64,000 nt of DNA from Streptomyces sp. LBL (GTDB taxonomy: Bacteria > Actinomycetota > Actinomycetes > Streptomycetales > Streptomycetaceae), in NCBI RefSeq assembly GCF_029893585.1, contig NZ_JARXYX010000043.1, positions 1 through 64,000 of the forward strand, read 5' to 3'. This document shows positions 33,078 through 38,216 of this stretch, in pieces; position 1 is the stretch's first letter; each line of letters starts with the position of its first letter. A model generated the notes under the pieces. That model was not told where the DNA came from. It ran no database searches and worked only from the letters and a program-made list of their open reading frames with translations. A program made the position numbers and the translations under genes.

Positions 33078-33294
33078 GATGCGTCGGGTGGTTCCCCCTG
33101 AGGTTCCGCGTGCCGCGTGTACGACGCCATCGGTCTCCCCACGTGTTCCGGGTCCCTGCCCTGCCTCCCCCTCCATCGTCGTTCACGTCCCGTCGGTTCG
33201 GCATCCCGGCATCCGTGGCACCAGCGCCGCGGAATCGGTCGGACCGGTGCCTCGGGGATTTCGGAGAGCCAACGATCTCATGAGACCGCGGGCC

Positions 33295-33809
33295 GCGGGC
33301 CGCATCATCTGGCGTCCGCAGTTCATCGTGGCCGGCCTGGGCACCAACGACTTCTCCACGCCCCTCGACCCAGGTGAACGCTGGGCCGCACAGGCGGAGT
33401 TGGCCGCCACCTCCGGGCCGCCCGTCACGGCTTCCTGGACCGGCTGGGGGCCCGGAACGGCCGCAGGAGGTTCTTCATCCTGGTCAGCTCCGCGTACCCC
33501 GCCAACACGACACGGCCGCGTTCGCCCGGAGCCCAGAACACCGAGCGCCGAGCGCCGAGCGCCGAGCAACGAGCAACGAGCAACGAGCAACGAGCAACGA
33601 GCAACGAGCAACGAGCAACGAGCAACGAGCAACGAGCACACCGTCCAGGAACGCGAGCGGCGTGGGGACAACCGGTTGCGCCTCCACTGGCACTACGACG
33701 ATCCCGGCGTCGACCGTCTTGGCTGCGACTGGCCCCCTCCCTCCACGACCACCGGATCATCTCCGGCCCGCTGGGCCGCTTCCTCACCGGACTGCCCCTG
33801 TGCCGGTAG
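33295..33809 (+). pseudogene. Decayed SGNH/GDSL hydrolase
   Basis: Three pieces in different frames add up to the C-terminal half of an SGNH esterase. The first has FIVAGLGTNDFSTPLDPGER, including the conserved GxND block. The second (about 33423-33530) has FLDRLGARNGRRRFFILVSS. The third (from about 33660) has LRLHWHYDDPGVDRLGCDWP, and after a shift in a C-rich run HDHRIISGPLGRFLTGLP to TAG 33809. The catalytic Asp/His block DW(H)P is partly kept. A heptamer repeat array sits between pieces two and three. The 5' half with the nucleophile is absent. Confidence 0.65.
33543..33639. repeat. Heptamer tandem array: GAGCGCC x3 then GAGCAAC x10
   Basis: Three exact copies of GAGCGCC (33543-33563) are followed by ten exact copies of GAGCAAC (33564-33633) and a partial unit. 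The array lies inside the decayed SGNH hydrolase. Confidence 0.95.
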
Positions 33810-35843: not shown

Positions 35844-36117
35844 TCAGGCGTCGTGAGCCATGGCGACGGGCATCGTCCAGCCCAGCGAGTGCGGTTCGGG
35901 GTCGTCCAGGGCCGCCGCGTGAGGTTCCTCTCCCGCGGGCGCGTTGAACGCGGTGAGCGCCTCGACGAGTGTGGCCCGCTGCTGGGGTGCGAGGTCTCCG
36001 ACGATCGCGGCGATCTCCGCGCGGCGCCGGGCGGTGACGTCCTCGACGGTGCGTCGTCCTTCGTCAGTGAGCCGCAGCCGGGTCTCCCGGCGGTTGTCAG
36101 GGTTGGTCTGCCCGACA
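35844..36117 (-). pseudogene. 5'-truncated MarR family regulator
   Basis: The last 85 residues of a MarR protein are clear: TNPDNRRETRLRLTDEGRRT (wing), then a dimerisation helix AEIAAIVGDLAPQQRATLVE. The HTH and N-terminal helix are missing. The frame breaks at about 36117, directly beside a hairpin and a tRNA-like element. Confidence 0.6.
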
Positions 36118-36120
36118 TGC

Positions 36121-36156
36121 AGGAACCCCACCCTGCATACACGGGGTGGGGTTCCT
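36121..36156 (-). terminator. 13-bp perfect hairpin downstream of the tRNA-like element
   Basis: AGGAACCCCACCC (36121-36133) and GGGTGGGGTTCCT (36144-36156) are perfect complements around ten bases. Read on the minus strand, it begins seven bases after the tRNA-like structure ends, as expected for its terminator. Confidence 0.6.
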
Positions 36157-36162
36157 TGTTCG

Positions 36163-36232
36163 AGCGCTGGGCAGGCCTTGCACCTGCATCTCCCCGCAGG
36201 AAGCGGGGCGTCTTTCCTTGGACCACCAACGC
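36163..36232 (-). tRNA. tRNA-like element, non-canonical, anticodon position UCC
   Basis: On the minus strand the 70 bases fold into a full cloverleaf. The acceptor stem is GCGTTGG with CCAGCGC (7 bp, one G-U). The D arm is GTC-CAAGGAAA-GAC with the GG pair. The anticodon arm is CCCCG-CTTCCTG-CGGGG with U33 and UCC at 34-36. The variable loop has 4 bases, and the T arm is GCAGG-TGCAAGG-CCTGC. The T-loop has G instead of U at position 55 and the base after the anticodon is U, so it is not a normal glycine tRNA. It may be a tRNA pseudogene or an unusual tRNA. A terminator hairpin follows directly. Confidence 0.5.
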
Positions 36233-36421
36233 ACTGTCGGACACCGGAAGTTCGGCGCCGCGTTCTGGATCAAGCATACCCCAGGCGGCAGGTGCCGCTC
36301 CCCAAGGAGGCCGGCCGGGGGACATCGCCGGTCGACACCGCGTTTCGGTCGTCAAAGCTCCCCCGAGACCCAGTACGGCAGGACGTAGGACGTCGGGTTC
36401 CTGCTCGGCCGGGACGACCGC

Positions 36422-36677: not shown

Positions 36678-38216
36678 TCAGCGGACGCCGCTGTACTGGC
36701 CTTCCACCTGGTACAGGTCCGTGGAGGTGCTGATCAGTTCCTGCTGTTCTTCCTGCGAACCGACCATCGGCTGCGAGCCGTTGAGCGGGACCTGGGAGCT
36801 CTCCGGCAGGAACCTCACCGTCACCAGGCCGATGACGCCGGCCAGCATCAGGTAGTAGGCGGGCATCAGGTCGTCACCGGTGAGGCTGATCAGCGCCTCG
36901 GTCACCAACGGGGTGGTGCCTCCGAAGATGGCGACGGCGAAGTTGAAGCCGATGCCCATGGCGGCGTAGCGGACGGCGGTCGGGAACAGCGCGGGCAGGG
37001 TGGCGGCGCTCGGGGCGGCGAAGCAGGCCAGCAGGGTGGAGAGGATGAGGACGCCGAAGATCGGTGGCCAGGTTCCGTCCGCCTTGATCAGGAGGAAGGA
37101 CGGAACGGCAAGGACGATCATCGCGGCCGCCGAGACGCCGTAGAGGGGCCGTCGGCCGACGCGGTCGCTGAGCCGGCCGAGGAAGGTGATCAGCAGCACG
37201 ATCCACACCATGCCGATCAGGACCAGGACGTCGGCGGAACCGCTGGAACGGTTCAGGGTCTCCGTCTGATAGGTGGGCAGGAAGCCGGTGACCATGTAGT
37301 TGGTGACGTTGTAGAGCAGGACGAGGCCCATGCAGATGAGCAGGGGCCGCCAGTGGTCCTTGACGATGGTCCGCAGCTCGTCGCCGGTCGACTCCTGGGC
37401 GAGGCTCTTCTCGTGCTCGTCCAACTGCTGCTGGAAGGCCGGGGACTCCTCCAGCTTGAGCCGCATGTACAGGCCGATGACGCCGAGGGGCCCGGCGATC
37501 AGGAACGGGATGCGCCAGCCCCACGAGAGCATCTCCGTGTCGGAGAGCAGCAGGTTCAGTACGGTGACCAGGGCCGAGCCGAGCGCGTAGCCGGTGAAGG
37601 TGCCGAAGTCGAGCCAGCTGGAGAGGAACCCGCGGCGGCGGTCCGGTGAGTACTCGGCGACGAAGGTGGTGGCGCCGCCGTACTCGCCGCCGGTGGAGAA
37701 GCCCTGGACCATGCGGGCGAGCAGCAGAAGGACCGGGGCGGCGATGCCGATCGTGCCGTAACTGGGAATCAGGCCGATGGCGAAGGTGCCGACCGCCATC
37801 ATGATCATGGTGGTGGCCAGCACCTTCTGCCGGCCGATACGGTCGCCCAGCGGGCCGAAGACGAGGCCACCGAGGGGCCGTACGACGAACGCCGCCGCGA
37901 AGGTCGCGAAGGACGAGATCACCTGGGCGGCCGGCGAGGCTCCCGGGAAGAACACCTTTCCGATGGTGGCGGCGAGGTAGCTGTAGACGCCGAAGTCGAA
38001 CCATTCCATGCAGTTGCCGAGTGCGGAGGCGCTGACGGCCCGCTTCAGCAGCGGCCGTTCGACGACCTGGACGTCCTCCTCGCGGAAGGCACCCTTGTTC
38101 CGGCGCAGCCGCCGGGTCAGTTCCTCCCGGACCTGGTGCGGGAGGTTCGCGACGGACTTCGGGACGGGCCCCCTGTTCGGCGGATCGGGCTGATCCTCCA
38201 GCTTCGCGCCTACCAC
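36678..38216 (-). CDS. MFS metabolite:H+ symporter, ProP-like
   Basis: The protein has 512 residues with twelve membrane segments. Signatures of the metabolite:H+ symporter group are clear: GNCMEWFDFGVYSYLAATIG near 67, LGDRIGRQKVL and GFSTGGEYGGATTFVAEYSP. ProP-type members import proline, betaine or carboxylates. The C-terminal tail (SQEEQQELISTSTD) is polar. The start is a GTG at 38216 with GAAAGG upstream. It stands alone, divergent from the FHA-like gene. Confidence 0.85.
   Translation of the reverse strand: MVGAKLEDQPDPPNRGPVPKSVANLPHQVREELTRRLRRNKGAFREEDVQVVERPLLKRAVSASALGNCMEWFDFGVYSYLAATIGKVFFPGASPAAQVISSFATFAAAFVVRPLGGLVFGPLGDRIGRQKVLATTMIMMAVGTFAIGLIPSYGTIGIAAPVLLLLARMVQGFSTGGEYGGATTFVAEYSPDRRRGFLSSWLDFGTFTGYALGSALVTVLNLLLSDTEMLSWGWRIPFLIAGPLGVIGLYMRLKLEESPAFQQQLDEHEKSLAQESTGDELRTIVKDHWRPLLICMGLVLLYNVTNYMVTGFLPTYQTETLNRSSGSADVLVLIGMVWIVLLITFLGRLSDRVGRRPLYGVSAAAMIVLAVPSFLLIKADGTWPPIFGVLILSTLLACFAAPSAATLPALFPTAVRYAAMGIGFNFAVAIFGGTTPLVTEALISLTGDDLMPAYYLMLAGVIGLVTVRFLPESSQVPLNGSQPMVGSQEEQQELISTSTDLYQVEGQYSGVR

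Follow-up and report, generated by a model that had tools for sequence, protein, structure and literature searches.

A dispersed family of atypical tRNA-Gly genes in Streptomyces and its candidate role outside translation

A segment of 70 nucleotides on the minus strand of a Streptomyces sp. LBL contig has the shape of a tRNA and the anticodon of a tRNA-Gly, and at several positions breaks the rules for a tRNA that serves the ribosome. The question raised by this locus is whether such a segment is a chance fold, a relic, a divergent tRNA that still decodes glycine codons, or an RNA employed elsewhere. The window, here and below, is the whole stretch of DNA analysed (64,000 nt); the features that matter are these.

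36163..36232, minus: tRNA-Gly(UCC)-like core of 70 nt, its positions 1-70 running from 36232 to 36163, with discriminator U73 at 36163
36199..36201, minus: anticodon position, UCC, whose C35 and C36 are kept in the subtypes read
36176..36182, minus: T loop UGCAAGG, with GUGC replacing GTpsiC
36273..36278, minus: -10-like box, TATGCT, whose start lies 46 nt ahead of the core
36268-36271, minus: GATC after the -10-like box
36233..36267, minus: GC-rich leader between box and core
36121..36156, minus: terminator-like hairpin with a 13-bp stem, 6 nt beyond the core, no U tract behind
36678..38216, minus: MFS sugar-type transporter (PF00083), the co-directional upstream neighbour of the tRNA
35844..36131, minus: ORF of 95 aa that starts inside the hairpin

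The cloverleaf and its setting

The original prediction described a complete cloverleaf on the minus strand, and this is borne out by folding, by ARAGORN and by a whole-genome Rfam search, though an Rfam cmscan of the window alone listed no tRNA in either of two runs. The core has a 7-bp acceptor stem (including one G-U pair), a 3-bp D stem with GG in its loop, a 5-bp anticodon stem with the 7-nt loop CUUCCUG, a variable loop AGAU of 4 nt, and a 5-bp T stem with the loop UGCAAGG; C32 and G38 can pair, giving a 5-nt anticodon loop in the minimum free energy fold. That fold reaches -35.5 kcal/mol (z = -2.70), and only 2 of 200 shuffles are equally good, so the stems are better than those of shuffled sequence. 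ARAGORN makes a single call in the 64-kb window, tRNA-Gly(tcc) at 36162-36232(-). Run on 60 first-order shuffles of the window (3.84 Mb), it makes three tRNA calls, none of them Gly, which makes a chance call in a single 64-kb window unlikely. In the whole-genome search the Rfam tRNA model (RF00005) scores the core at 41.9 bits against a gathering score of 29, third lowest among 73 hits, and the second copy of the family in this genome (contig C61) is absent from those 73. A covariance model made from 20 distinct cores of the family (R1) scores the window core at 104.9 bits. The departures from tRNA rules pointed out at G55 and U37, and the reading of the anticodon as UCC, are all as claimed.

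Copies of the family were compared in 85 stretches, of which 84 hold 86 copies (one a duplicate; L102 was retrieved incompletely). The 70-nt core is nearly invariant, the 86 copies reducing to 20 distinct cores with a mean column identity of 97%, while the flanks differ. Upstream, TANNNT lies between -66 and -40 in 84/86 copies, as against 0/86 in an equally wide control stretch, and starts at -47 in 45 copies and at -46 in 14. The bases ahead of this box tend towards TG-N-G (T in 84%, G in 78% and G in 86% of 84 aligned copies), and directly behind it stands GATC, in 79/86 copies versus 11/86 for the control; in 50/86 the motif extends to GATCWT, which is described in PMC9239103, in the portion available, as the consensus of the nucleoid protein Gbn, a protein that binds promoter regions of some S. 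coelicolor tRNA genes. The leader appears hairpin-like by eye in many copies, and a consensus fold of the family alignment A2 places no pairs in it. Past the core, a GC-rich hairpin follows nearly all aligned copies (by eye), its sequence varying with the pairing kept, and each of its 13 consensus pairs has both bases changed in between 2 and 40 of the 85 sequences. The window hairpin, predicted just beyond the 3' end of the core, is present (36121-36133 with 36144-36156). C74 is invariant in 85 sequences; CCA is encoded by many copies and is lacking in the window copy. Judged by this arrangement of box, core and terminator-like hairpin, each copy looks like its own transcription unit.

The closest upstream ORF is co-directional in 60/84 loci, with a median distance there of 151 nt from stop to core. 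A homologue of the window's MFS transporter is the upstream neighbour also in L067 and L072, and the stretch that the window shares with these two and with L099 and L110 runs roughly 135-178 bp, from box to hairpin. When relatives of the MFS neighbour in three genomes (G013, G016, G020) were examined for an empty site, none matched the window's sequence around the tRNA by blastn. On the other side, the 95-aa ORF has no Pfam match; its product presumably resembles the C-terminus of a MarR protein, and the ORF appears to have lost its 5' part, as though the tRNA cassette had been joined to the 3' end of a MarR-type gene by a rearrangement.

Distribution, subtypes and covariation

A search of other Streptomyces, proposed with the original prediction, finds the family widely. 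Matches by blastn occur in 109/199 Streptomyces genomes, often several per genome, and R1 finds 1-6 copies each in 108/199, two of them in the window's own genome, and none in the other 91. Among other genera of Streptomycetaceae the dispersed kind occurs in 1/51 genomes (G203; R1). In a class-wide sample, R1 at E <= 1e-7 matches 0/268 non-Streptomyces genomes versus 16/28 Streptomyces, under the stricter filters of large searches, which can lose weak matches. R1 hits in one genome (G212) were ordinary tRNA-Arg and were set aside.

The family is also carried on plasmids, with a blastn match in 69/72,556 records, and all seven of the plasmid stretches retrieved have a core that R1 recognises. 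The carriers are linear plasmids plus one small circular one, the 21-kb circular plasmid of S. angustmyceticus, which has one type B copy (see below); plasmid pCLA1 of S. clavuligerus ATCC 27064 carries two family copies on one 18-kb stretch. No family match was found in 50,697 phage records, and two exact patterns gave 0 matches in IMG/VR. In all, four stretches (L086, L138, L200, L295) hold two copies each, 1 to 7 kb apart; the L138 pair has similar leaders but different hairpins, and the L086 pair differs in both. The copies on G091:C1 lie at mirrored distances (37 and 49 kb) from the two ends of a linear chromosome, and are therefore probably located in its terminal inverted repeats. In our literature searches, which covered mostly openly readable papers, there is no report of this Streptomyces tRNA-Gly family, and the portions available of PMC3848588, PMC7609411 and PMC4810233 contain nothing on it; as far as that literature goes, the family is undescribed.

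Eighteen genomes were searched again, 17 of them with a match, and the divergent copies there belong mostly to two subtypes, B and C. Type A, to which the window copy belongs, has the 7-nt anticodon loop with U33 and UCC. Type B has a 6-nt loop reading CAACCG, CAGCCG or CUGCCG (14 copies read: 13 from G028, G064, G137, G175, G191 and G194, plus L148 of G203), and type C the 6-nt loop CUCCAA (nine copies read, from G031, G055, G058, G069, G096, G154 and G180); these counts leave out five listed copies, three of G175 and two of G058. Types B and C keep CC in the shortened loop and differ in their stems; common to both are a D loop tending to AAGG(A/N)AA, the T arm and the acceptor end, and most have the box and the hairpin. 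They make up a conserved set of tRNAs missed by a standard finder, as ARAGORN calls tRNA-Gly in 0/23 of the type B and C copies and makes one spurious tRNA-Leu call. An anticodon loop reduced to 6 nt with C35 and C36 inside it is unlikely to decode normally. On our reading of the sequences, types B and C would have lost decoding while keeping the bases that GlyRS reads, and this loss probably happened twice.

Where multiple copies were read in one genome they are of one subtype, except in G073 (the A-like L191 and the D-like L212) and G187 (types A and E; types D and E are described below). Degenerate-looking copies also occur: pairs are broken in L209 and L217, L297 has discriminator C and D-stem mismatches, and L147 is without a clear -10 box.

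Compensatory changes in the stems, looked for in the family alignment as a mark of function, are found. Among the 20 distinct type A cores (alignment A1) 99.8% of cells pair, with both-side changes in three pairs; in the T loop the columns T51, G52, C53, A55, G56 and G57 are invariant, and the D and T loops as a whole are nearly so. Joining types A, B and C, in an alignment fitted to the model and hence favouring the structure, gives 37 distinct rows in which 99.5% of 740 cells pair and both sides have changed in 7 pairs and 57 cells. Shuffled controls average 3.8 pairs and 11.8 cells with such changes, and slid partners reach at most 2 and 6. The cloverleaf is a real, conserved gene and not a chance fold, and the comparison of homologues argues that its structure is under selection. 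Of the options originally put forward, that of an atypical tRNA stands: a conserved family, with compensatory stem changes and with its own -10-like box and terminator-like hairpin.

Relatives with the GUGC T loop

A GUGC T loop marks the cell-wall tRNA-Gly species of staphylococci. A pattern consisting of a GUGCAA T arm and then CGCTCCA, based in part on staphylococcal sequence and run genome-wide, matched 38 stretches, which were sorted by eye and with ARAGORN. Ten are tRNA-Gly(UCC) clusters of Staphylococcus or Mammaliicoccus with the T loop UGCAAAU, eleven are a further Streptomyces tRNA that we call type E, one is Streptomyces type D (L237, to which L212 of G073 is similar), and 14 look like chance. 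Two more, from metagenome-assembled genomes (L219, L240), are tRNA-like with a GUGCAA T loop and apparently not tRNA-Gly.

Type E is a tRNA-Gly(UCC) found in 198/199 Streptomyces genomes (allowing up to 3 mismatches), mostly as one copy; the reversed pattern gave no type E among the matches listed. It is present also in 9/9 genomes of another genus (g7), where R1 scores it at 44-47 bits. An exact T-arm pattern searched across the class matched 11/296 genomes, all Streptomyces and all type A among the matches listed; with a reversed control at 12 genomes, this says little about type E. The type E gene of the window's own genome (L049; G000:C45:46971-47042) lies 80 nt before a tRNA-Gly(GCC), which ARAGORN calls while missing type E; elsewhere ARAGORN calls type E in some loci only. 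Its T arm is CAGUGUGCAAUUCCUG, whose stem contains an extra U, and it adjoins tRNA-Gly(GCC) wherever read. Type E resembles the dispersed family in its GUGCAA T loop and, if the extra U is a bulge, in A51-U63; it differs in being mostly single-copy and in its canonical D stem and D loop AGUAGUA, and its anticodon loop has 7 nt.

Staphylococcus uses non-proteinogenic tRNAs-Gly for the pentaglycine bridge of peptidoglycan (PMC4052509, PMC9976931, in the portions available), and the features compared here come from reviews besides the loci retrieved. The two groups share UCC, the glycine identity bases, A51-U63 and the presence of several copies per genome, and the T-loop run U54 G55 C56 A57 A58 of the staphylococcal loci (retrieved with a GUGC-containing pattern) occurs in the Streptomyces family also. 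GG is retained in the type A D loop, whereas at positions 18-19 the staphylococcal tRNAs have UU or CU instead, and where the staphylococcal tRNAs combine A49-U65 with A51-U63 the Streptomyces core has A51-U63 but G49-C65 (PMC4052509, in part). The Streptomyces copies are solitary, each with its own hairpin terminator and at many sites, whereas the staphylococcal ones stand in tRNA clusters; subtypes with a 6-nt anticodon loop, too, set the family apart. Because its D-loop and 49-65 features differ, we do not place it in the staphylococcal set.

Glycine identity and candidate roles

The bacterial glycine identity set is given as G1-C72, C2-G71, C35, C36 and U73 (PMC9976931, in part), and the window core has it in full; the exceptions among the copies read are L217 and L297. 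Features that serve translation are another matter. The T loop, UGCAAGG, lacks the UUC of TpsiC, its G55 being the same in all 20 variants of A1, and type A variants have U or C at position 37. The T stem has G49-C65, C50-G64 and A51-U63, so that the EF-Tu pairs G49-U65 and G51-C63 are both missing, and the change from G51-C63 to A51-U63 is among the EF-Tu-weakening ones named for S. aureus in the available part of PMC4052509. The genome's own canonical UCC, CCC and one GCC tRNA-Gly have G49-U65, C50-G64 and G51-C63 (by eye), and its canonical GCC genes in L048 and L049 have C51-G63; as two of the three canonical GCC genes are thus without G51-C63, that pair is weak evidence by itself. The same genome has a separate canonical tRNA-Gly(UCC) (L039), so decoding does not rest on the atypical gene, and one was found in all 11 other genomes searched for it. 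L039 shares with the window core the cloverleaf, UCC, U73, G1-C72 and C2-G71, and differs in its T loop (UUCGAUU versus UGCAAGG), in G51-C63 versus A51-U63, in its D arm, and in its RF00005 score (75.0 versus 41.9 bits).

These properties lead us to favour, with modest confidence, the reading that the window feature is one copy of a dispersed tRNA-Gly gene that is charged with glycine, does not translate, and feeds a FemABX-type or similar transferase; the family as a whole probably works like a non-proteinogenic tRNA-Gly. Its expression, charging and user enzyme are predictions. RNA polymerase would start about 40 nt upstream of the core, RNase P and CCA addition would mature the RNA, and GlyRS would charge it with glycine. 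EF-Tu would bind the charged tRNA poorly, and the glycine would pass to an aminoacyl-tRNA-dependent transferase, most likely of FemABX type, for a peptidoglycan glycine bridge, or to a related natural-product enzyme, in parallel with the unusual staphylococcal tRNAs-Gly that serve the pentaglycine bridge. Going on from a charged, non-translating RNA to a particular enzyme is our inference, and it is this parallel that gives it weight. Users of aminoacyl-tRNA in Streptomyces include FemX and VanK (PMC4052509), and Orf11 of BD-12 is a Streptomyces Gly-tRNA enzyme for an antibiotic (PMC12945691), both according to the portions of those papers available.

Does the family's neighbourhood point to a partner? 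About 45 gene contexts surround the family copies (hand count), and clustering of ORFs from a simple ORF caller at 84 loci shows no recurrent neighbour beyond shared sites, from which the larger neighbour clusters come, for example 14 loci behind a gene that we take to be tsaD. A FemX-like gene is near a family copy in only 1/85 stretches. FemAB is present in 199/199 Streptomyces genomes, a spread which that of type E (198/199) resembles, and the counts of FemAB matches are no different in genomes with and without the dispersed family (means 3.60 and 3.52, p = 0.97). The only difference between those genomes is size (9.09 versus 7.97 Mb, p = 1e-9), which may reflect clades. Against the transferase reading, then, the dispersed family was not found in 91/199 genomes although all have FemAB; the GUGC T loop occurs also in L219 and L240, which do not look like tRNA-Gly; and some copies look degenerate.

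A rather unlikely alternative is that charging is beside the point and that the family is a tRNA-shaped regulatory or decoy RNA, or bait for toxins that attack tRNAs. An accessory, multi-copy, dispersed family, found on plasmids and with D and T loops nearly invariant in sequence, would suit such a role, and there is a precedent in the B. cereus pseudo-tRNA called tRNA-Other, which is tRNA-shaped and is said to act outside translation, affecting the cell wall and antibiotic resistance; it differs in its Trp anticodon, its poor aminoacylation in vitro and its being part of a longer RNA (PMC3399842, in part). A decoy, however, need not keep the glycine identity bases, which persist in three subtypes with diverged anticodon arms, and no recurrent toxin or regulator adjoins the 84 loci. 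That the gene is instead a divergent but translating tRNA-Gly(UCC), adding decoding capacity for GGA and GGG codons, we regard as improbable. Type A does have the 7-nt loop, U33 and UCC, and is accepted by ARAGORN and, in the whole-genome search, by the Rfam model, but the canonical tRNA-Gly(UCC) is there already, in this genome as in the 11 others; the T loop departs from TpsiC, U or C occupies position 37, C32 can pair with G38, and types B and C stay conserved with their 6-nt loops, most with box and terminator-like hairpin.

The suggestion of a phage or plasmid tRNA relic, or of a selfish cassette that persists solely through its own copying, fares worse still and seems to us very improbable. 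The confinement of what the window shares with L067, L072, L099 and L110 to the stretch from box to hairpin speaks for it, as do the copies on linear plasmids and one small circular plasmid. The decay expected without selection is not seen, however, in cores that hold 97% mean column identity amid differing flanks and that show compensatory changes; matches are absent from the phage records and, for two exact patterns, from IMG/VR; and no transposase, terminal inverted repeat or target-site signature was noticed in the loci read. The reading as a charged, non-translating tRNA-Gly can be widened, as a tentative proposal that we would call possible but doubtful: a tRNA lineage without decoding but still charged, its members glycine carriers spread as promoter-tRNA-terminator cassettes of about 150 bp over Streptomyces chromosomes and plasmids, with the anticodon loop remade, probably twice, around the two bases that GlyRS reads, and supplying a non-ribosomal glycine reaction beyond that of type E.

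By what means cells withhold charged tRNAs from the ribosome for use in cell-wall chemistry is, according to the portion available of PMC4052509, somewhat unclear in most instances; if Streptomyces has a dedicated non-translating tRNA-Gly, that question would become directly testable in a genus with good genetics. Elsewhere in the window, at about 33183-33693, a short tandem repeat lies in overlapping ORFs, which read (ATSNEQR)n on one strand and (LVARCSL)n on the opposite strand.
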